From Armatimonadota bacterium (lineage in GTDB: Bacteria; Armatimonadota; Zipacnadia; Zipacnadales; JABUFB01): a stretch of 64,000 nt of DNA. Shown one piece after another: positions 5,821-19,391 of the stretch (position 1 is its first letter; every line of letters starts with the position of its first letter). Under the pieces are notes generated by a model that ran no database searches, had not been told where the DNA came from, and was given only the letters and a program-made list of their open reading frames with translations. The stretch covers positions 851,036 through 915,035 of the forward strand of contig JABUFB010000008.1 of assembly GCA_013314775.1 (NCBI GenBank), written 5' to 3'. Made by a program: the position numbers and the translations under genes.

Positions 5821-6924
5821 ATGCGCAAGATGAAGATCGGCGTCGTCGGCTGCGGCAATATCAGCGGCGTCTACCTGCAGGCGCCGCAGAAGTTCCCCAT
5901 TCTCGATATCGTTGCCTGCGCCGATATTGATATGAATGCCGCGCGGGTCCAGGCTGAGAAATACGGGATCCCGAGAGCTTGCACGGTGGACGAACTCCTG
6001 GCCGACCCGGCAATCGAGATTGTCGTGAACCTGACGCCGCCGCATTTCCATTCCACCATCGACCTGGCCGCTCTGCAGGCCGGGAAACACGCCTACGCTG
6101 AAAAGCCGCTGGCCGTTTCGCGTGCGGACGGGAAGCGAATCATGGAGCTGGCGGCCGCGAAGGGACTACGGGTAGGCTCCGCGCCGGACACATTCCTCGG
6201 CGGCGGCATCCAGACCTGCCGCAAGCTGATCGATGACGGCTGGATCGGCCAGCCCATCGGCGCGGCAGCATTCATGCTGGGGCACGGACCGGAAGCCTGG
6301 CACCCCAACCCGTTCTTCTTCTACCAGCCGGGAGCGGGCCCGCTGTTTGACATGGGCCCGTACTACCTCACTGCCCTGGTGAATCTTCTGGGACCGGTCA
6401 AGAGCGTGGCCGCATCCGCCACCATCAGCTTTTCTGAACGCATCGCCACCTGCAAGGAGCATTTCGGCAAGGCCATCCAGGTGACCACGCCGACCCACGT
6501 GAACGGGATACTGGAGTTCGAGACGGGCGCAGTGGGGACCATCACCACCAGCTTCGACGTCTGGGCCTGCGAACTGCCGCGCATCGAGGTGTACGGATCG
6601 GAGGGCACCTTGAGCGTTCCTGACCCAAACACTTTCGGCGGTCCGGTGCGGCTGAAGAGAGCGGGCGCGGAGGGCTGGACGGAAATGCCCTTGAGCCATG
6701 GCTACGCGGACCAGAGCCGGGGCATTGGCGCTGCGGATATGGCCTATGCTCTCCAGTCCGGCCGCGATCATCGTGCCAGCGGGGCACTGGCTTTCCACGT
6801 GCTAGACATTATGGAGTCTCTCTACGAGGCTGCCAGGGCGCGGGCGTACGTGGACCTGGGCAGCCGTGTTGATCGCCCGGCGCCGCTGCCCATGGGGCTG
6901 CTCCCGGGGATGCTTGACGAGTAG
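5821..6924 (+). CDS. Gfo/Idh/MocA-family NAD(P)-dependent oxidoreductase
   Basis: A 367-residue cytoplasmic dehydrogenase probably acting on a sugar or sugar derivative. It has the nucleotide-binding GVVGCGNISG near the N terminus, the catalytic EKP motif in HAYAEKPLAVS and a FDMGPYYLTALVNLLG segment where the family carries its D-x-G-x-H/Y active-site motif; here the position is Tyr, as in one recognised subgroup. Start ATG 5821 has AGGAGG at 5805-5810. It is divergent from the GH109-like gene, so the two may act on the same sugar. The substrate cannot be predicted. Confidence 0.92.
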   Translation: MRKMKIGVVGCGNISGVYLQAPQKFPILDIVACADIDMNAARVQAEKYGIPRACTVDELLADPAIEIVVNLTPPHFHSTIDLAALQAGKHAYAEKPLAVSRADGKRIMELAAAKGLRVGSAPDTFLGGGIQTCRKLIDDGWIGQPIGAAAFMLGHGPEAWHPNPFFFYQPGAGPLFDMGPYYLTALVNLLGPVKSVAASATISFSERIATCKEHFGKAIQVTTPTHVNGILEFETGAVGTITTSFDVWACELPRIEVYGSEGTLSVPDPNTFGGPVRLKRAGAEGWTEMPLSHGYADQSRGIGAADMAYALQSGRDHRASGALAFHVLDIMESLYEAARARAYVDLGSRVDRPAPLPMGLLPGMLDE

Positions 6925-6952
6925 ACTTCGGGCACGTCAGCGCGGAAAACAG

Positions 6953-6980
6953 GAGCGGGGACCGGAGCAGGTCCCCGCTC
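6953..6980. terminator. Bidirectional rho-independent terminator
   Basis: A perfect 11-bp stem GAGCGGGGACC/GGTCCCCGCTC with a 6-nt loop lies between two convergent genes. On the minus strand the stem is followed by a TTTT run (6946-6949), so it best serves the 6997-7497 gene, but it can also stop transcripts of the oxidoreductase. Confidence 0.8.
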
Positions 6981-6996
6981 TCTTCGTGATCTGGGG

Positions 6997-7497
6997 TCAG
7001 CGTCGCCCAAAGACCATTTCGCACTTCCCCGCCCCGTCGCACATCATGCAGGTCATCTCAAAAGCATACCTTTCCCCGAACTCCCTGCACCAGGCCTCGC
7101 CTTCCGCCGGGCAGATACGCTTCGACACCAGCGACGCGAGATGCTGGCGGTCGCTCTTGTTCAGGAGGTCCTGCCACGGGCATCGGGCGATGCGAAAGGT
7201 GACGTGATCTTCGTCAATTTGCGCATCGAACTGGTGTCCATCCGCGGTGAGCTTCAGGCTGAAACAGCGCAGCAAGTCTTCGGGTTCATTCCCGGCGCAC
7301 TGGAGAAGCTCCCGGGCCTTGCGGGCCTGGATCTTCGCGAGCACCCGCCAGACCCGCTCATCGAGATCAAGCGCGCGGTCGAAATCGAATTCCTCTTCGA
7401 CCATCATGAACCAGAGGCCGTCCACCGCATGGTAGGAACGGCGCAGGTATTCGGACAGGGCTTCGGGACTGATCAGCGACACCTCCTGGACACCCAC
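6997..7497 (-). CDS. Cysteine-rich cytosolic protein, DUF6125/ATC-hydrolase-like
   Basis: 166 residues of unknown function. The opening (EYLRRSYHAVDGLWFMMVEE, then an acidic FDFDRALDLDERVW) and the Cys-rich second half (CPW, ICPAEGEAWC, CMMC) recall DUF6125 or the L-2-amino-thiazoline-4-carboxylate hydrolase-like proteins; I am only moderately sure. The spaced cysteines could bind a metal or Fe-S cluster. The start is ambiguous: GTG 7497 is conventional, but a strong AGGAGG at 7487-7482 lies inside that frame and points to CTG 7476 (spacing 5). It precedes the secreted glycosidase-like gene on the same strand when read from upstream to downstream. Confidence 0.7.
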   Translation of the reverse strand: MGVQEVSLISPEALSEYLRRSYHAVDGLWFMMVEEEFDFDRALDLDERVWRVLAKIQARKARELLQCAGNEPEDLLRCFSLKLTADGHQFDAQIDEDHVTFRIARCPWQDLLNKSDRQHLASLVSKRICPAEGEAWCREFGERYAFEMTCMMCDGAGKCEMVFGRR

Positions 7498-7546
7498 TTA
7501 ATGGTGGTGCGGCCGGCTCCTGGGGGCTGTCATGCCCCCGCCTGAG

Positions 7547-10500
7547 TTACCAGACTACCACGGCGAAATCGTGGTTCGTGTCGCCCAGATCAATGGTCAG
7601 GTCGGGTGCGCATGAGCCTTCGAACACAATGCTCCGCTGGTCGACATCGTACACCCGGCAACGGCTGCCAGGTTTCAGGCCGCGCAGGCTCAGAGCGAGC
7701 GGGGACCGCCTCACCCGCTGGCGGTGAAGCTCATTTACTGCGGTCCCGTACCCCGGCCCAAGCTTGTACTCAGCGGTGTTCTTCACGAAAGCCACCAGAG
7801 CGCTGCGCTCGGAGTTCATCAGGTAACTAACCGAGTACTCGCCGGTGGTCAGTAGCGGGCGCGAAGCAAGAATCTCGGCTGGGACTGAATCCGGGGCGAA
7901 GTCGGCCTGCGGATCAAGCACCAGGGCATAGTCGGAAGGGGCAGCAACATCTTCGTGGCCTTCCCAGATGTAGTCGCAGTCCAGACCAAACGCGGCCAGG
8001 CGGCTCTCCAGGTCAGTCAGACGTGACAGAAGGTCGGGGGTGAGCTTCTGAAGCTTCACGGCGATGTCCGGCTTCGCGCGGACGAACCGGGTCCAGTCGA
8101 TGAGGTCCGCACAGGCCTGGGGTATGGTGCGCTCCTCTTGGGTCCACGGCGCAGACCAGGAGATACACATGGTTTGCTGGCACAGGAGCGAAGCCCAGCA
8201 GTTATCCCGGACCTTTGTGATGAAGTCGGGGTGAGTCCAGGTAGCCGCGAAACCCGGGTACCAGCCCGGTCCGCTGGCGAACTCGGCGCAGAAGACCGGT
8301 GGATTCGCGCGGTATGCCCGGGCGCAGGCCATAAAGTAGGCGTCGGATCTTGCGCCCGCCGTGTAGTAGGTGCGGTATCCGAGACCCGCGGAATGGGTAG
8401 GTTTGTACTCGTCGGCGCCCCACGGGTTGCCGCCGCTCATGCTCTGTGCCCCGCCGCCCTGTTCCTGGGTCACCATCTGCGCAGGCGCGTACGCTTTCAC
8501 GTGATCGAAAAGATCGTTGATGAACTCCGGTCCGTATGTCTGGTCGTTCTCTCCCGTGAGGGAATACGCCATCATCGCGGGGTCATCGCGCAAGACGGTC
8601 AGAAGCTCCGACAGGTAACTCTTCAGCATCGGGCGCAGCACCGGGTCGGTGAAGGATGCCGTGGACTTGTAGCCCGCGTCCACGTACTGCTGCCAGGGCG
8701 GGTAACGTCCCGTGCTTGGGCTGCCATACGGGTAGTGAAAGACATTGAGGACCGCCTTCATGCCCAGTGCGCGGCATTCCGACAGAATAATCTGGAGGGT
8801 CTCGAGGCCCTGCATGGACACGTGCCCGCCAGCGTCAAGGTAGGCCTCATGCGGGGTCACATTCATCGCCAGCCGGATTACCCGCATCCCCGCCGCGTGA
8901 TGAGCAGCGAGTTGGGAGTGGATCTCCTTACGCGAGAGAGTGCGCAGTTTCAGCAAGCGTACCCGGCTCTGCTCTTCGGTTGACAATGCGCGCCAGTCGT
9001 CTGCGGACACGACAACTCGGCGGCCAACCTCGGTGGGGCCCAATACGGGTGTCCAGGCGTAGAGATCGCCCAACAGACAGGGCGATACGCGACCGTCACC
9101 CGTCTGGTAGGTGCTGAACGGCGGCGCCCAGCGCAGGAAGTCATCAGGGTTCGTGAGGGTAACGATCAGTGATGACGCGTACTCATTGCCTGCGTCGCCG
9201 TTAGCGGACAGGGAGACCGGCGTGTCCCCCATCGGTAGCCCTTGCAGGCGACAGGTGAAGACGCCGGTGTCCGCCAGCTCATGCATGGCGATCCGCTTAT
9301 CGCCGACCTGCGCGCGTAAGCTTGCATCCGGCGCGTGGCGGAGTTGTCCGTCCGGCCCAGCGAGAACGGCGTAAATGTCCACCCCATCAGCCGCGCGGTC
9401 GGATGTGCGCACGATCTGGGGGGAAGTCACGAGCGCGCCGGGCCCGGTGAGGCTGATCGATAGCTTCGCGCGACCTTCCGGCATACCTGCGGGCGGTCGA
9501 TCTTGATAGATGAAGACCCCAATTTCCGCGAACTGTCGGTCACCCAGACCCCGCTCGGCGAAGAGTTTGTCCAGGTCCACGGAGCCATTGATTGAGTCGG
9601 TGGTCGGCTCGGTGCGGAAGAGCTCGATCCCGTTGCCGAGATATGGGCAGACCTGGGTGATGGACAGGTAGCAGCGGCCCGCTTCAGGGGTCATCCGGTA
9701 CTCCAGCGTGGGCCGCTGGCGGATGCACCACTGGAAAGTGCGCACGGCGGCAACGTCATAGCCGTCGAGATCATTGGGGCGGGTGAAGATGCTCTCGGTA
9801 TCGGAGACGGGTTCCACCTTACAGAGCCGGTTGGGATGCCACGACCCGGCCTGCCTGGTTCCGGTGAGAGTGAGCAGCGGGCCGCCGTCATAGGCGAGCA
9901 CCGTCCCGCGCAGGCCATCCCCTTCGCCCAGCCAGCGCGTGGCGCGGTTGAAGGTCATGGGCGCGCGGGGGTCAAAGCCCCGCAGTTCGGCATCCCGGTA
10001 GTCTTCCATGCGCCCCGCAATGATGGCGTCCGCGGTGAGGCTGATGTTGTCGAAGCGGCTTGCGCCGCGGTTCTGCGGATACTCGTCGGGACCAACCGCG
10101 CGCTCCTGGTTGTGGTAGAAGCCCAGCCTGCACAGGCGTCCCACGAGACCTCCGATGCGGCGCGTGAACTCGGCGACCTGTTCCCCGGTCGCACGATCGA
10201 TGGCCTTCAGGTGCGCGTTCCAGTCGGCGCCCACCTGAAGCTCCAGGCGGTACCAGCGGCCTGGCTCCAGCGCCCTATCCCCCCTGGCCCCGGCGCAGTG
10301 GGCGACATTGCCCAGCGGCTGCCCCGAAAGCCCCGCGACAGCGAGGAACATCTCCGGCACCCCGAACCAGACACCAGCCAAGTACAGGTGGGGCGAGTTG
10401 GTGGCGATCTGCTGATCCCATCGAAGTGTGAGCGGAAGCTTTACCGTGCGATCCAGTTCCACCCAGGCGTGCTTTCCGACGCGCGGAGCGGTCATGTCCA

Positions 10501-10796: not shown

Positions 10797-12668
10797 TCAC
10801 CCGTCCGTGCCCACCACGCCCACAACCGGACAGTTACGGTTGATGTGCTGCGGATCATTGCGCTCGGTCAGGAAGCAGTGCAGTTCCGCCCGGGCCCCCG
10901 CGTTTACGGCGAGGGTCACGGTCAGCGGAATCCGCGCAGGTAGTTCGGGCATCTCGAAAACCGTGCCCGGACCCGACCGATGCGGAGCGGGAACGAAGCG
11001 GGTCGGCTCCCTCTTGCGGATGATCTCTTCGCCCTCGAGGAGCACTCGCTGCAACTGCGGTGTGGCGCAAACGATCCGGCCCGGTTCGCGTAGATTATTG
11101 TGCAGTACTGTCTGGACGAAGTAGATGCGGTCGTGATCCAGGCCGGGGTCCAACACCAGCGCGTGACCGTCCGTGCGCACCGTGCGCCAGCCGTCTTCGG
11201 GCAGGGCCATGTCCAGCGCGTCCGCAAGATCCCCCTCCACCACAACAGGTCCGACAATGCGCCACGAGCGCTTACCCGCAATGGCCACCCGGTCCTTCAG
11301 ATTGCAGTCCTTCCCGGTGAGCGCAACATCTACGAAGTATACGGCCTGTGGGACGGCCCCGGCGGGCTGTTTCAGGGTGAAGCAGCGGCGCATGAGGCCG
11401 TGCTCGCGGTGGCTCGCGCCGGGCTCGATCGCCCAACCGTCTGGGGCGTTCAGGCTGAATGCGGCGTCTTCAGGCAGTTTCCCCGTCGCGGTGAGGGTCA
11501 GCGTAATGCTCACCCCCGGCGCGATGGTGCAGTCGCCGCCGTAGTCGGTGACAAGGCGCAGGCCCTGATCTTCCACAACCAACTTCCAGTCCAGGTTCTT
11601 CAGTTTGGCCTTCACCCGCCCCTGACCAGTGAGATGCTCGCACGCCAGACCGCTCAGGGCATCCACGTCGCCGATCCGCACCGGGCAGTCGTAGGCCTCC
11701 AGCATCTCTTCGGCGGCCTCGCAGGTCCAGTCTGTGAGTTCATCCAGGGTCGCCGGAATCTCGCAGCCGATGGTTCCGTACATGATCTTGATCTCGTTGC
11801 CCACAGGCGCGGTCCACTTATCGTCGAAGTACTCGGGCCCGTGGATGAGTCCGAGGATTGCCCCGAGGGTCGCGCCCGTGCAGTCCGTGTCCTGGCCGCA
11901 ATTGACGGCCTTGCACATGGCGTCCCCGGCGTCCTGGCCGTAGAGCCAGCCAAGTATGGTGAAAGCGATGTTCTGCGGGGCGTCGGTGAAGTTCTCGTGG
12001 CCGACGGCAGCCATGATCGCCTGGCGGCATTGGAGCCAGTCATCCCCGCGTGCGTGGCTTTCCCGGCAGGCCACGACGCCCTGATACACGCGGCAGTCAG
12101 GCGGCAGGAACTCAAGGCCCAGGTCCAGGAGCGCTTCTCGGTCGTCGATGACAAAGGCAGCGCTCTCCAGCGCTGCGAAGAAGATCTCGCCGAAGAGCCC
12201 CTGGCCGCCGTGATCCACGCATCCGTCCTGATAGGCAAGTGCGGCGGCAAGATCAGGGTTCCCGGGAGCCACGCAGGCCCAGATCTCGCTGCGGATCGGC
12301 GCCCCCATGCTGTCGGTGAACCAGTTGTTATGCTGGCCGCTAACGGGGGGCTCGATACCCAGGAAGAGGTTGGCCTTGCACAGACCGTACTCGTCCCAGG
12401 GGTAGGTGAGATGATCACGCCAGGCCTGCCCAAGGTCGCGCTCAGTGATCTTCGGGCCTACCTGTCGCAGTTTCGCCAGCCAGACCAATTGCAGGTCCAG
12501 GTCGTCATTGGCAATGGCGCCCTCGGGCACCGGATCGTAGAAGGTCAGTGATAGCGGTCCCGGTTTGCCCTCATGGGGCTGGCCGAGAGTGCCGCCTACG
12601 TTCTTGCCCAGCCAGCAGCCCAGGACCTTGCGGCGGTATGTTTCGCGGCTGATCGTGTATGCAGGCAT
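10797..12668 (-). CDS. ADP-ribosylglycohydrolase-family protein with C-terminal extension
   Basis: 623 residues. The N-terminal 330 or so match the ADP-ribosylglycohydrolase (DraG/ARH) fold: GCWLGKNVGGTLG, an acidic NDDLDLQ metal site, and GQDTDCTGATLGAILG, which supplies the second metal-binding D-x-D-x-T set. The remaining 290 residues are a beta-rich extension with no motif I recognise. ATG 12668 is preceded by AGAGG. In saccharolytic genomes such proteins sit with sugar oxidoreductases and may hydrolyse N- or O-glycosidic bonds rather than protein ADP-ribose; that is inference from context. Divergent from the DUF6785-like membrane gene. Confidence 0.88.
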   Translation of the reverse strand: MPAYTISRETYRRKVLGCWLGKNVGGTLGQPHEGKPGPLSLTFYDPVPEGAIANDDLDLQLVWLAKLRQVGPKITERDLGQAWRDHLTYPWDEYGLCKANLFLGIEPPVSGQHNNWFTDSMGAPIRSEIWACVAPGNPDLAAALAYQDGCVDHGGQGLFGEIFFAALESAAFVIDDREALLDLGLEFLPPDCRVYQGVVACRESHARGDDWLQCRQAIMAAVGHENFTDAPQNIAFTILGWLYGQDAGDAMCKAVNCGQDTDCTGATLGAILGLIHGPEYFDDKWTAPVGNEIKIMYGTIGCEIPATLDELTDWTCEAAEEMLEAYDCPVRIGDVDALSGLACEHLTGQGRVKAKLKNLDWKLVVEDQGLRLVTDYGGDCTIAPGVSITLTLTATGKLPEDAAFSLNAPDGWAIEPGASHREHGLMRRCFTLKQPAGAVPQAVYFVDVALTGKDCNLKDRVAIAGKRSWRIVGPVVVEGDLADALDMALPEDGWRTVRTDGHALVLDPGLDHDRIYFVQTVLHNNLREPGRIVCATPQLQRVLLEGEEIIRKREPTRFVPAPHRSGPGTVFEMPELPARIPLTVTLAVNAGARAELHCFLTERNDPQHINRNCPVVGVVGTDG

Positions 12669-12789
12669 GTCGGTGCCTCTTTGTGTGAGAAGTAGGTCAG
12701 TGTGCACGGGAGTCGTTCCGCGGGGACAGGCAAAGGACCTGCCGCCGACAGCATGTGGCGCAGGCGCTACTGGGTTTGATGAATGGGCG

Positions 12790-12818
12790 GTCACGGGGAA
12801 GGTCACAGCGCCCGTGAC
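12790..12818. promoter_or_regulatory. Inverted repeat in divergent promoter region
   Basis: GTCACGGG (12790-12797) and CCCGTGAC (12811-12818) form a perfect 8-bp dyad with a 13-nt spacer that itself contains GGTCAC. It lies about 42 bp before the membrane protein start and may be an operator or leader hairpin. Confidence 0.35.
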
Positions 12819-12860
12819 AGCGAAACATGCCGCCGCCAAAGTAACCAACGGAGACGCTAC

Positions 12861-14804
12861 ATGTCCGCCAACCCCGATCACAGTGTTCGTGATTCGCGCC
12901 TGCCGTCGGGGCGCGCGTTGCTTCTCGGCCTCGTTTTCGTCGTTCTTACGGGCCTCGCGGTGCAGCAAATCGCGCTCGTGTACAATGCGGGCGAGATCGA
13001 AAGCAGCGTGCCGCCGGTACCAGCGGTGATGGTCCTGTTGCTGCTCGCGGCCCTGAATCCCCTGCTCGGGTGCATCCACCACCGTTTGAAGCTGGGCCGT
13101 GGCGAGATGCTCACGATCTACGCCATGCTCGTTCTGGCTGTTGCCATGAGCGGCCGGCGGATGGTCCGGATTCTTCTGGGTTTTCTGGCGTGCCCGCGGT
13201 ATTACGAGAACCTGGAAGACGTTGCCGGGGCGATGCAGGAGTGGTATGCGCCTTCGGACCCTGAAGTGATCCGCCTGTTCTTCGAGTCCTCGCGAGATGG
13301 CCTCGTCCCCTGGAGTGCCTGGACGGGCCCCCTGACCGCCTGGACGCTCTTCCTCGTGGTCTCGTGGATCGGCATCTTCTGTCTGCTGGACCTGTTCCGC
13401 ACCCGCTGGGCCGACCAGGAGCACCTGCGGTTCCCGCTGCTGTACCTGCCCCTGGAGCTGTCCGTGGACAGCGGCGAGGCACGGCGGACATTCCTACGCA
13501 GTGCACTCATGTGGGTCGGGTTCGCCATCGGGTTTCTGTACGCCCTGCCTGTAGTGGTGAGTCCATTCTGGCCGAACTTCCCCGACTGGAAGGTGACCTA
13601 TTACCCCTTCCAGGCCATGAACGCGACGCCGTGGAATGAATTGCGTCGCATCTACATGCGGCCTCTTCCCCACCTGATTGGGTTCGGCTATTTGATGAGC
13701 ACCGACAACCTGCTCACCATCTGGGTGACGTATCTCGCCCAGCAGTTCATGTGGGTGCTGTTCACCGCATATGGTTTCCGCCGGCCGGGTTGGCACATCG
13801 GGCAGGAACACCAGCAATCGATGGGCGCGATCATAGCCCTGGCTATGGTTCTCATCTGGTCCAATCGCAGTGCCATCGTCGGCGCCGCGAGTTCGCCGTC
13901 CTGGGGACAACGCCTGAGGCTCATCGGCGCGTGTGTGGGGCTGATCGCATCGGTCTGGTTCACGACAAACATGGGGGCGCCATGGTGGATGGCCGCCTGC
14001 CTCATGATCATCCTCTATGCCGAGGCGCTGGTATACGCGAGGATCCGGGCGGAGACGGGCCTGCCAAGCTATTGGGCATTGCCCTTCCTGTTTCAGGAAC
14101 GGGACATGATTGTGGACATCACCGGCTCGCGGCCATTCACAACCCCCAAGGGGTTCGCGGGGCTGGCGAACTTCAGCGTTCTTGGCTGGATGACCACGGG
14201 CCAGTTCCCGCAGACCGGCGCCTACCACGTGGAAAACGTGCGCCTAGGGCGCGAGACGGGCATCAACCCGTCAGCGATGCTCTGGGTGAACGTGCTGGCG
14301 ATCATCGCGGGGCTTGTGATTGCCTACTGGACCCATCTGCGCACCTTCCACGACATGGGTGCACTGTCAGCCATCGGCGCTGAGGGTGACGGTTACTATG
14401 AGGTCAAGTGGGCCCGGGGGAGCTACGCAAAGGCTATCTCCATCGGCCAGTCGCGTACCGGGTTCGACATCATCCCCAACCTGTTTCGGCTGGGTGGCGC
14501 GGGTATGGTCCTGCTGCTTGCGAACTTGCGCGCCCGATATGGTGGTTTCCCCTTCACACCCTGGGGCTACCTGATCGCTTCGACCTACGGGACAACCTAC
14601 TGGACGAGCTTCATGATCACCTGGGCAGCACAGAAGATCATCCTGCGTTACTGGGGGGCGAAATCTCACGCCCGCGCAATCCCCTTCTTCCTGGGCATCA
14701 GCTTCGGGTACATGTTCGCGACCGTGGCGGCGGTGATCGTGGGTTTCGTGACCGGCAAAGCATTCAGTTTCGCAGCCGGGAAGCGGCTGTACTTTGACGT
14801 GTAG
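12861..14804 (+). CDS. Polytopic membrane protein, DUF6785/DUF6784-like
   Basis: 647 residues with about 14 hydrophobic segments, beginning with LLLGLVFVVLTGLAVQQIAL near residue 20. Internal features such as YLPLELS, AYHVENVRLGRETG, LSAIGAEGDGYYEVKW and AGKRLYFDV fit the DUF6785/DUF6784 family, which resembles oligopeptide (OPT) transporters and is common in Armatimonadota and Planctomycetota. ATG 12861 is chosen because GGAG lies 7 nt upstream. It is followed by an amidohydrolase with a short gap, so it may import the substrate of the cytosolic enzymes. A transport function is inferred. Confidence 0.75.
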   Translation: MSANPDHSVRDSRLPSGRALLLGLVFVVLTGLAVQQIALVYNAGEIESSVPPVPAVMVLLLLAALNPLLGCIHHRLKLGRGEMLTIYAMLVLAVAMSGRRMVRILLGFLACPRYYENLEDVAGAMQEWYAPSDPEVIRLFFESSRDGLVPWSAWTGPLTAWTLFLVVSWIGIFCLLDLFRTRWADQEHLRFPLLYLPLELSVDSGEARRTFLRSALMWVGFAIGFLYALPVVVSPFWPNFPDWKVTYYPFQAMNATPWNELRRIYMRPLPHLIGFGYLMSTDNLLTIWVTYLAQQFMWVLFTAYGFRRPGWHIGQEHQQSMGAIIALAMVLIWSNRSAIVGAASSPSWGQRLRLIGACVGLIASVWFTTNMGAPWWMAACLMIILYAEALVYARIRAETGLPSYWALPFLFQERDMIVDITGSRPFTTPKGFAGLANFSVLGWMTTGQFPQTGAYHVENVRLGRETGINPSAMLWVNVLAIIAGLVIAYWTHLRTFHDMGALSAIGAEGDGYYEVKWARGSYAKAISIGQSRTGFDIIPNLFRLGGAGMVLLLANLRARYGGFPFTPWGYLIASTYGTTYWTSFMITWAAQKIILRYWGAKSHARAIPFFLGISFGYMFATVAAVIVGFVTGKAFSFAAGKRLYFDV

Positions 14805-14865: not shown

Positions 14866-16509
14866 ATGGACCTATTCGACGCGAATGCCTATATCGGACG
14901 TTACCGCCAGATGGGCCCGGGAGCCGTCTGGTCGCGCGAAGAGCTGATCGCGGACATGAACCGTTTCGGTATTGCCGAGGCGCTGGTTTGCGACACGGCG
15001 TCGCGGGAAGTCCACTGCGAACCGGGGAACAGGCGGATCATCGAGCTCACCTCGGGGCAACCGCGCCTGCACCCCTGCTGGTCTCTGATTCCCCCGCGCG
15101 CCGGAGAGATCGGCCCACTGAATACGCTTCTGGACCGCATGCGCGAAGCCGGGGTGCGAGCGGCGAAACTCTTCCCGGGGCATTACACCTTCGGTCTGAA
15201 CGAGTGGTGTGTGGGCGACCTGCTGGAAACACTGGAAAAGGGGCGCATCCCCACTTTCATCGACTGCAACCGGGAGTTCGTAGGCGGCTGGCCACCCGAC
15301 AGCACCGACTGGGACGCCATCGTGACCCTCTGCAAGGCACTCCCGCGTCTGCCGGTGATCGTCAGCGAAGCTCGCTTCCGTTCCGCCAACCGCATGATCT
15401 ACCAGGCCCTGCAGGCCTGCCCGAATCTGCACATTGAGTTGTCGGGCTTCTGGGTGCACCACGGGATCGAGTTCGTCTGCCGGGAGTTCGGGGCCAACCG
15501 CCTGCTGTTCGGGAGCAAGTGGCCCGTGCGTGAGGTGGGTGGGCTGGTCGCCACCATCCGAATGGCGGACATCAGCGACCGGGAGAAGGCCCTCATCGGA
15601 GGCGACAATCTCCGGGAACTTCTGGCTGGTGCCCACAGGGGCAAGTTGCGGAAGACCGCGCTTCACCGCGTCAAACTGAGCGCGGCGACCGGAGACTCCC
15701 TGCGTTCGAAAGCCCTGCGTGGAGAGCCCCCGGCAGGCGAATTGGTCATCGACGCCCACGCCCACCTGGGCAGGGCAGCGATCTACCACCTCGCGGACAG
15801 CACCCCGGCGCTGGTTGAGAAGGAGATGCAGCGGCTGAACGTGCAATGCTCCATCGTCTTCGGGCTTTCCGGCGTCATTGGGGACTGGACTTGCGACAAT
15901 GACCTGGTCGCGAAAGCCATGAAGAGCCACCCGAATCGGTATTTCGGGCTGATCGTGGTGAACCCCAACAACCCCGAACAGATGATGGCGGAGCTTGAGC
16001 GCTGCGAAGACAAGGGGTTCATCGGGATCAAACTCATCCCCCAATACCAGGGGTACCCCGAAGAGGGTCCCAACATTGACCTGGCGCTGGAGTGGGCGAA
16101 CGAGCGAAAGATGATTGTGCTGAACCACGGCTGGGGGTCACTGGGAAGGCTCCGGGAAATTGCCGAGCGGTTCAGCGACACCACGCTCATCGTCGGTCAC
16201 TATTCCACCGCTTACGCGCCGGTGGTGAACAATTATCCAAACGTCTATCAGTGCACATGCGAGCCATTGATGTATGATTCAATGGAAACGCTGGTGAAAG
16301 CCATTGACCCGGCGAAGATCGTGTACGGCTCAGACGTGACCGACCTGCCGATTCCGCTGGGGATGGGCCCAATCCTCCACGCCCGCATCCCTGAGGAGGA
16401 CAAGAGGCGCATTCTGGGGCTCAATGCCCTCGACATGATGCGCCGGGCAGGTGTCGAACCGCTGCCCAATGGAGGCCATCCGGAACCGGTCCTGCGCCAA
16501 GGGCGTTAG
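14866..16509 (+). CDS. Tandem amidohydrolase-2 domain protein (N-domain degenerate)
   Basis: 547 residues with two amidohydrolase_2-type TIM barrels in one chain. The C-terminal copy (from about 290) has the metal site DAHAHLG (His298, His300), a later NHGW, GHYS and the catalytic Asp of YGSDV, so it should hydrolyse or decarboxylate a small acid or lactone. The N-terminal copy has DANAYIG where HxH should be and FGSKWP where the Asp should be, so it has lost its metal ligands. ATG 14866 has GAGGG about 10 nt upstream; a longer frame from 14794 overlaps the upstream gene and is less likely. Confidence 0.88.
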   Translation: MDLFDANAYIGRYRQMGPGAVWSREELIADMNRFGIAEALVCDTASREVHCEPGNRRIIELTSGQPRLHPCWSLIPPRAGEIGPLNTLLDRMREAGVRAAKLFPGHYTFGLNEWCVGDLLETLEKGRIPTFIDCNREFVGGWPPDSTDWDAIVTLCKALPRLPVIVSEARFRSANRMIYQALQACPNLHIELSGFWVHHGIEFVCREFGANRLLFGSKWPVREVGGLVATIRMADISDREKALIGGDNLRELLAGAHRGKLRKTALHRVKLSAATGDSLRSKALRGEPPAGELVIDAHAHLGRAAIYHLADSTPALVEKEMQRLNVQCSIVFGLSGVIGDWTCDNDLVAKAMKSHPNRYFGLIVVNPNNPEQMMAELERCEDKGFIGIKLIPQYQGYPEEGPNIDLALEWANERKMIVLNHGWGSLGRLREIAERFSDTTLIVGHYSTAYAPVVNNYPNVYQCTCEPLMYDSMETLVKAIDPAKIVYGSDVTDLPIPLGMGPILHARIPEEDKRRILGLNALDMMRRAGVEPLPNGGHPEPVLRQGR

Positions 16510-16587: not shown

Positions 16588-17274
16588 ATGACCGAGCTCA
16601 TACTGCTGACCATCATTCTCACCGCAATCCTGCGCACCATCCGGAAACTCCGGCCCGGTGCGCTGCCGGGGCTGGCAAACCTGGGCCTGCGCACCCCCTT
16701 GCGGAACCGATTTTTCGGCCCCGCGCGGGTGCTGCTCGAGGCCGGTATTCAGCCCGGCTGGTGCGTGCTTGAGCTTGGCCCGGGATGGGGGTTCCTTACC
16801 CACGAAGCGGCGCGGGAAGTGGGGCCCGAAGGGCAACTCGTGGGGCTGGATATGTGCCCGAAAATGCTGGAAAAATGCCAGGAGAAGGTACACGATCCCG
16901 CTCATGCCCTGCACCTGGTCTGCGGGAACGGTGAAATGCTGCCCTTCACAGACGCGGCCTTCGATGCCGCCCTGCTGGTGAGCGTGCTTGGTGAAGTGCA
17001 GGACCGTCCGGCGATGTTCCGAGAGATGCTGCGGTGCCTGAAGCCCGGGGCGGCACTGATTGTGAACGAACTGGTGCTCGACCCGGACTACGTGTTCCCA
17101 TGGACGGTGCGGAAAATGGGTGCAGACGCGGGCTTTGAGATCGGGGAGACCACCGGAAATATCCTTAGCCACACAACGCGGCTGGTGAGACCGCAGGTTG
17201 AGCTTGGCATTCCCGCCGCAAGCACGGACGAACTTGTGCAGGCCGCTGCCTCCGCTGGTGAAGGGCGCCTGTAG
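16588..17274 (+). CDS. Class I SAM-dependent methyltransferase with N-terminal membrane anchor
   Basis: 228 residues. A hydrophobic start (ELILLTIILTAIL) suggests a membrane anchor. A methyltransferase domain follows, with SAM-binding motif LELGPGWGFLT (about residues 53-63), an acidic GLDMCPKM and the DAALLVSVLGEV core strand. This is a UbiE/Methyltransf_11-like domain, acting on a lipid or small molecule. The last 40 residues are divergent. No ribosome site is obvious before ATG 16588. It sits between the amidohydrolase and a Gfo/Idh/MocA gene. Confidence 0.85.
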   Translation: MTELILLTIILTAILRTIRKLRPGALPGLANLGLRTPLRNRFFGPARVLLEAGIQPGWCVLELGPGWGFLTHEAAREVGPEGQLVGLDMCPKMLEKCQEKVHDPAHALHLVCGNGEMLPFTDAAFDAALLVSVLGEVQDRPAMFREMLRCLKPGAALIVNELVLDPDYVFPWTVRKMGADAGFEIGETTGNILSHTTRLVRPQVELGIPAASTDELVQAAASAGEGRL

Positions 17275-18425: not shown

Positions 18426-18454
18426 TTGACTCCCCCGCGGGGCGCGGGTAGAAT
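18426..18454 (+). promoter_or_regulatory. Sigma70-type promoter of the glycyl-radical activase gene
   Basis: TTGACT (18426-18431), 17-bp spacer, TAGAAT (18449-18454). The expected start point near 18461 gives a short leader of about 22 nt that includes AGGGGG at 18469-18474, 8 nt before the TTG start. Confidence 0.75.
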
Positions 18455-18482
18455 AGCGCGAAATCCCCAGGGGGCTGTTGGC

Positions 18483-19391
18483 TTGTCGGTGACCGGCGTC
18501 ATATTCGATATCAAGAAGTTCGCGATCCATGACGGACCGGGGATTCGTACCACCGTGTTCCTGAAAGGGTGCCCTTTGCGGTGCCTGTGGTGCCACAATC
18601 CCGAATCCCAGGACCCGCGACCCGTTCTGGCCCAGTTCCCACGCAACTGCATCGCATGCTTCAAGTGCATCGAGGTGTGCCCCCAGCACGGGATTACGCG
18701 CGGCGAAGAGCAGATCCTGATCAACCGCGAGGCTTGCATCCGTTGCGGGACCTGTACGCGCACCTGCTATGCCGAAGCGCTGGTCCTGCACGGCCGTACG
18801 GTAACGGTTGAGGAAGTGCTAGCAGAAGTCGAAAAGGACCGGCCCTTCTACCAAAACTCGGGCGGCGGCATGACTTTGTCCGGCGGCGAACCGCTCTGCC
18901 AGATCGACTTCGCTGAAGAGCTCCTGCGGCAAGCGAAGGAGACCGGCCTGCATAATGTGGTGGACACCTGCGGTTACGTGCCGTGGTCCCACCTGGAGCG
19001 CGCGCTCCCCTTCACGGACCTGTTTCTGTACGATCTCAAGTCTACCGACCCGGCGGAACACCTGCGCGCGACGGGCGTGGACTGCGACCTGATCATCCAG
19101 AACCTGCACAAGTTATCCGCAGCGGGCGCAATGATCCAGATTCGAGTGCCGGTTGTTCCCGGACACAATGCCTCCGCGGAGGCGATGGATGGCATTGGCG
19201 CGCTGGTGGGCAGCCTGTCTCCGGTGCCGGACGTGGAGTTGCTGCGCTATCACCGGCTGGGCGAGGGAAAATACGAGAGTCTGGGCCTCGTCTGCCCGGA
19301 GCGGATCGAGCAGCCCCCCAGCGATGAACTGATGCAGGAATTGCGTGGGACGGTAGAGAAGTACGGGGTGAAGTGCAAAGTCGGAGGCTGA
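18483..19391 (+). CDS. Glycyl-radical enzyme activase (pyruvate formate-lyase-activating-enzyme family)
   Basis: A 302-residue radical SAM protein. It has the family start [20 protein letters not shown], the SAM-cleaving [4Fe-4S] motif C30-x3-C34-x2-C37, and two ferredoxin-type clusters ([12 protein letters not shown] and [11 protein letters not shown]). Enzymes like this use SAM to place a glycyl radical on a partner such as formate-lyase, diol dehydratase or benzylsuccinate-synthase-type enzymes. TTG 18483 is chosen for the AGGGGG 8 nt upstream; GTG 18489 is an alternative. It has its own promoter and terminator and no glycyl-radical enzyme is encoded in the window. Confidence 0.93.

Follow-up and report, generated by a model that had tools for sequence, protein, structure and literature searches.

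Why should a protein keep, joined to an intact enzyme domain, a second domain of the same family that has lost its metal ligands? The question is raised by a gene on the forward strand of the 64,000-nucleotide stretch of Armatimonadota DNA analysed here (the window), which encodes two barrels of the Amidohydro_2 family in one chain, the first dead at the family metal site and the second complete. The reading favoured here, with moderate confidence, is that of an enzyme/pseudoenzyme pair in which the dead barrel is a maintained partner in an obligate heterodimer, covalently joined in this gene. If true, this would be a clean natural example of how a homodimer became a heterodimer whose subunits divide the work, and one phylum would still display the stages—separate adjacent genes, in-frame genes parted by a single stop codon, and full fusion—and it would turn the reason for which dead paralogues are retained into a general question that can be tested. 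Annotation of both halves as 'amidohydrolase family protein' hides the fact that one of them cannot be a metalloenzyme of the usual type.

Translation of the gene gives 547 residues and then a stop (Table 1). An AGGGA motif stands immediately 5' of the ATG, and an alternative in-frame TTG start is possible at 14794, giving 571 residues. The first-pass annotation, made from the sequence, had described two amidohydrolase_2 barrels in this chain and called for structure prediction of both halves; Pfam finds PF04909 (Amidohydro_2) twice in the chain, with 111.2 bits against a gathering cut-off of 26.4 bits that the N-half by itself also exceeds (37.9 bits), and AlphaFold2, run on the full chain with 34 fused proteins, gives two confident barrels (pLDDT 91.3, pTM 0.91). 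As the pTM is high for a two-domain chain, the placement of the two barrels relative to each other is confidently predicted as well. Modelling of the N-half alone again yields a confident barrel (pLDDT 94.1), closest among solved folds to 3irs and then to ACMSD, both members of the family. The TIM-barrel fold of Amidohydro_2 is thus found in both predicted halves (pLDDT 91-94, best solved matches being family members), and on these models the N-half looks like a folded pseudoenzyme and not a decayed remnant. The linker (residues 257-285) shares 79, 38 and 31% identity with three relatives, compared with 60-95% for the halves.

Table 1. Features of the tandem amidohydrolase gene and its immediate neighbours; positions are those of the window.
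Feature	Position	Strand	Evidence or conservation
DUF6785/DUF6784 membrane protein, start codon uncertain	12783..14804	+	Pfam, 285 bits; 61 bases 5' of the tandem gene
Tandem amidohydrolase gene, 547 aa, dead N barrel and live C barrel	14866..16509	+	Translation, Pfam, AlphaFold2
N-half, residues 1-256, Amidohydro_2 barrel without metal ligands	14866..15633	+	Pfam, 37.9 bits; AlphaFold2 pLDDT 94.1 alone; nearest solved folds 3irs, ACMSD
DANAY (residues 5-9) where beta-1 DxHxH is expected, N-half	14878..14892	+	His at both positions in only 1/35 hold-out N halves
E168 (at the beta-6 His position) to R176 (near-invariant arginine, start of alpha-6)	15367..15393	+	R176 in 100/103 N halves; beta-6/alpha-6 placement by DSSP on models
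GSKWP (residues 216-220) where beta-8 GSD is expected, N-half	15511..15525	+	Asp at 218 in 0/34 fused proteins of alignment A1, 0/35 hold-out, 7/22 further loci
Inter-domain linker, residues 257-290, poorly conserved	15634..15735	+	pLDDT <50 at 261-265; low identity
C-half, residues 291-531, Amidohydro_2 barrel, complete metal site	15736..16458	+	Pfam, AlphaFold2
DAHAH (296-300), metal ligands H298 and H300, C-half	15751..15765	+	99/99 C halves
K389, invariant lysine, beta-4 of C-half	16030..16032	+	99/99 C halves
H421, beta-5 metal ligand of C-half	16126..16128	+	97/99 C halves
H445, beta-6 histidine of C-half	16198..16200	+	99/99 C halves
D490, beta-8 metal ligand of C-half	16333..16335	+	99/99 C halves
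Class I methyltransferase	16588..17274	+	Pfam; 78 bases 3' of the tandem gene; kept downstream in L020 and L021

Five ligand positions were scored in each half: the two histidines of HxH, the beta-5 and beta-6 histidines and the beta-8 aspartate. The C-half carries the motifs DAHAH (296-300), NHG (420-422), GHYS (444-447) and GSD (488-490), all located where the first-pass annotation had seen a complete active site, and the full set of five is present in 97 of the 99 C halves, this protein included, the other two keeping four. The replacement of HxH and GSD by DANAY and GSKWP in the N-half, noted at the same time, is correct but understates the loss, as the beta-5 histidine (FIDCNRE) and the beta-6 histidine (VSEAR) are gone too; with N7 and Y9 in place of HxH, E168 in place of the beta-6 histidine and K218 in place of the beta-8 aspartate, this N-half keeps none of the five. 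Among 103 N halves, 85 retain no ligand, 17 retain one and a single one retains two; the beta-8 aspartate is kept by some N halves of the clade typified by the copy on contig C3 (7 of 22 in the further loci), but not with the histidines. A hold-out set repeats the pattern of the first set, which is therefore no effect of how that set was selected. Across the aligned 103 N and 99 C halves, the combination of dead N and live C is far beyond chance, deadness being judged from the metal ligands only. A metal site rebuilt in the N-half from other residues would have spoken against this reading; no conserved His/Cys/Asp set able to form one was found in the alignment of the 103 N halves.

The same order of domains recurs well beyond this gene. 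The closest public relatives of the window's genome (6.1 Mb) are Armatimonadota MAGs, with 91% (L020) and 65% (L021) identity. Two further copies in the window's genome, on contigs C10 and C3, are fused, and contig C18 has a split pair. The relatives searched in depth were those of Armatimonadota, the window's own phylum: matches at E 1e-20 or better occur in 46 of the 61 genomes searched, its own included, and matches at 1e-60 in 46 of 291 genomes of the phylum. Many relatives carry N and C as two adjacent genes, N before C. The hold-out comprised 40 further loci, fetched because an earlier list had only one half of each; 31 have both halves adjacent on the same strand with N first, six are cut by contig ends and three are orphans (L121, L134, L136), so that the arrangement holds in 31 of 34 resolvable loci, and the N gene is rarely seen without the C gene. 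A search for the two-domain order in other genomes, proposed at the outset, thus finds dead N and live C time and again as adjacent genes or fusions, and with the same architecture in dozens of genomes a chance fusion or assembly artefact was rejected. At two loci (L155 and L156) N and C lie in one frame with a single stop codon between them, an arrangement which, from the sequences, is likely an intermediate state. One split pair within a fused clade (L056) and a few other split cases may be frameshift artefacts in draft genomes.

Two other arrangements with domains lacking HxH occur in the window's genome. On contig C14 (L052, G000:C14:83000-98000, 6855-8472) the order of a pair is reversed, an intact-type domain coming first and a domain that lacks both HxH and R176 second; the latter falls outside the N clade on the tree, and the pair was excluded from the N and C counts. 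On contig C9 (L015, L018), a 335-residue protein (G000:C9:238921-239415) contains an HxH-less amidohydrolase-like domain with DCNCLFG and GTGLPF, and an intact-type homologue lies on the same contig (C9:236535-237293).

In a joint tree, the N and C halves form two separate groups, and an N half shares 19.5% identity with its own C half and 19.3% with other C halves. Because N halves are equally distant from their own and from other C halves, the pair is old, older than the fusions, and a recent tandem duplication with decay of one copy was rejected. Of the first-pass reading, the part that stands is that a dead site and an intact site share one chain and that the dead half behaves as a maintained partner unit; the implied tandem with one decayed copy does not stand, since N and C are separate lineages and often separate adjacent genes. 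Fusion came later than the pair, and probably more than once: the N-half tree contains five changes of fused or split label, at least three forced by well-supported branches, a count which cannot tell fusions from splits.

Substitution rates clearly show purifying selection on the dead half. In the comparison with the nearest relative the N-half has a dN/dS of 0.060, the C-half 0.096 and the linker 0.23, whereas in comparisons with two more distant relatives (L023 and L024) N is somewhat higher, with 0.22 and 0.30 compared with 0.14 and 0.16 for C. Mean identity among fused relatives is alike for the two halves (49.5% and 49.8%). In 16 split pairs the N and C distance matrices correlate with r = 0.87, a value reached by none of 2000 permutations, though co-inheritance of adjacent genes can also stem from co-transcription. 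The aligned sequences themselves show that in about 100 pairs N lost the ligands and C kept them, that N precedes C, that fused and split states recur, that N is under purifying selection and that R176 is near-invariant; from fusion and co-inheritance we infer a physical heterodimer, and with it a dependence of C on N for activity.

Because the dead-then-live pair is conserved across much of the phylum, adjacent or repeatedly fused, the live enzyme probably needs its dead partner, which would then not be debris. In the mechanism proposed, the C barrel would be a mononuclear metal-dependent enzyme of the hydrolase, lactonase or decarboxylase type, and the N barrel, unable to bind metal at the family site, would serve as its obligate partner, replacing the second subunit of an ancestral homodimer, with covalent joining in this gene fixing the 1:1 stoichiometry of the two. 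Among the closest parallels are AdoMetDC with its prozyme and deoxyhypusine synthase of trypanosomatids (PMC5201418, PMC3663545), where a live enzyme is likewise obligately paired with a dead paralogue. The enzymes and organisms differ, activation is experimental there and inferred here, and fusion is recurrent here; the mark of such pairs, a dead paralogue kept with its live partner, is nonetheless found in these sequences, with deadness again taken from the metal ligands only.

How the N barrel might act on its partner is suggested by ACMSD, the best solved fold match of the full chain (PDB 2hbv, 4ifk). In ACMSD the substrate is bound by Arg239, an essential residue contributed by the neighbouring subunit, which is why the monomer has no activity (PMC11650718, PMC9021598). 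ACMSD shares the barrel fold and, with the C-half, the HxH, the beta-5 and beta-6 histidines and the beta-8 aspartate, and its activity needs an arginine of the second subunit from the stretch after beta-6, where R176 sits here. It is, however, a homodimer of identical live subunits, whereas all members of the present group have one dead subunit, frequently fused to the live one, and identity over the fold alignments is about 12-16%. By DSSP on the models, R176 lies at the start of alpha-6, right after beta-6, and in the predicted structure on the barrel side that holds the active site in such folds; a conserved arginine at the start of the beta-6/alpha-6 segment is absent from the C halves in the alignments, hold-out included. 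R176 follows E168, the equivalent of the beta-6 histidine, by 8 residues and Arg239 follows the beta-6 histidine of the ACMSD sequence by 11, so that with offsets differing by three the correspondence, as far as the sequences tell, is one of segment and inexact as a residue match. By analogy with Arg239 of the ACMSD homodimer it is plausible, and can be put forward tentatively, that R176 would act in trans by reaching into the active site of C. The fuller scenario, in which an Armatimonadota amidohydrolase lineage turned asymmetric, with a metal-less subunit giving the trans arginine, a metal subunit and one composite site per heterodimer locked by several independent fusions, is more doubtful still.

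A further hint comes from the only two C halves short of a ligand, in which H421 is replaced by Cys: each is paired with an N half that lacks R176, of which there are three in all. Their loci (L139, G022:C53:12000-16000; L141, G019:C196:1100-5100) each contain a tandem of two fused dead/live genes, in which one copy lacks R176 in the N-half and has the beta-5 histidine changed to cysteine in the C-half. The coincidence comes from tandem duplicates in one genus and may perhaps be a single event.

R176 could instead bridge E202 or E81 inside the N barrel, and the strongest rival to the favoured reading takes the N barrel as a purely structural scaffold or stability partner in which R176 forms only an internal or interface salt bridge, for example with E202, and no N residue is catalytic. 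Fusion and co-inheritance show association only, and E202 is nearly invariant in N halves and stands at the start of alpha-7, adjoining alpha-6. A precedent is the P. aeruginosa ATCase, in which pseudo-dihydroorotase (pDHO), an inactive dihydroorotase-like chain of the amidohydrolase superfamily, is required for activity (PMC7053772) and is kept because its partner needs it, though that partner is an unrelated transcarbamoylase, whereas in the present case the dead barrel and its live partner belong to one family. R176 is, however, kept where E202 has changed (35/35 against 28/35 hold-out N halves), and the scaffold appears unlikely, if a serious contender.

The residues retained by the N barrel would also suit a regulatory domain, in which another metabolite, bound in the former active-site pocket, would tune the C enzyme allosterically. 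Its loops or strands retain conserved charged residues (R176, E81 in 94% and D5 in 103/103 N halves), and activation of a live enzyme by its dead paralogue has precedents in the trypanosome AdoMetDC prozyme and deoxyhypusine synthase cited above. The lining of the former metal site at the barrel centre (positions 7, 9, 101, 135, 168 and 218) nevertheless varies freely across relatives, as expected where no ligand is shared, and regulation by a bound metabolite seems quite unlikely.

The same variation bears on the idea of a bifunctional protein, whose N barrel would have an activity of its own at a different active site, either metal-free or rebuilt. Purifying selection on the N-half would agree with this, and E81, R176 and D5 could be catalytic; but the pocket residues differ from clade to clade, the N halves have no conserved His/Cys/Asp set for a rebuilt metal site, and the N gene seldom stands without the C gene, all of which makes a second activity improbable. 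A decaying duplicate, with an N half that recently lost function and is kept only through fusion, would account for the lost metal ligands but is scarcely credible, as N and C are old separate lineages, N also exists as a separate conserved gene and dN/dS against the nearest relative is 0.06.

For the favoured enzyme/pseudoenzyme pair, the nearest solved relatives by profile are BB4693 of Bordetella bronchiseptica (PDB 3irs), also the nearest by fold for the N-half, and CAC3332 (PDB 3cjp), both of them, unlike the present protein, uncharacterised and with a single barrel. Assignment to a named enzyme was rejected as no NCBIfam equivalog reached its cut-off; L-fucono-1,5-lactonase (NF052480) scored 15.5 bits against an equivalog cut-off of 400. 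No description of a tandem or fused dead/live amidohydrolase was found in the open literature.

The DUF6785/DUF6784 gene upstream is a possible operon partner of the tandem amidohydrolase; a gene of this family also occupies that adjacent position in L020, and one precedes the fused copy on contig C3. The family has, however, 30 copies in the window's genome (12783-14804 and 29 other places), with no match in 14 control genomes and no paper found in the open literature. Downstream on the same strand, Pfam identifies the methyltransferase, a Gfo/Idh oxidoreductase and a radical-SAM protein. Of 42 loci, 6 have a DegT-type aminotransferase directly beside the pair and 2 have one at a distance of one more gene (Pfam checked on two cluster members), the window's genome having 19 DegT genes; sulfatases, glycosidases, an FGGY kinase and Gfo/Idh proteins are neighbours at some loci. 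These neighbours loosely suggest a link to sugar-related catabolism, with no substrate named, and as they differ between clades the operon context was rejected as a substrate clue beyond that.

Two further genes of the window have features of their own. The radical-SAM protein (18426-19391) carries ferredoxin-type clusters, like the activating enzymes of glycyl-radical enzymes. On the reverse strand, an ORF of the ADP-ribosylglycohydrolase family (10797-13424) has a long N-terminal extension overlapping the DUF6785 gene on the opposite strand, and its true start probably lies well downstream.
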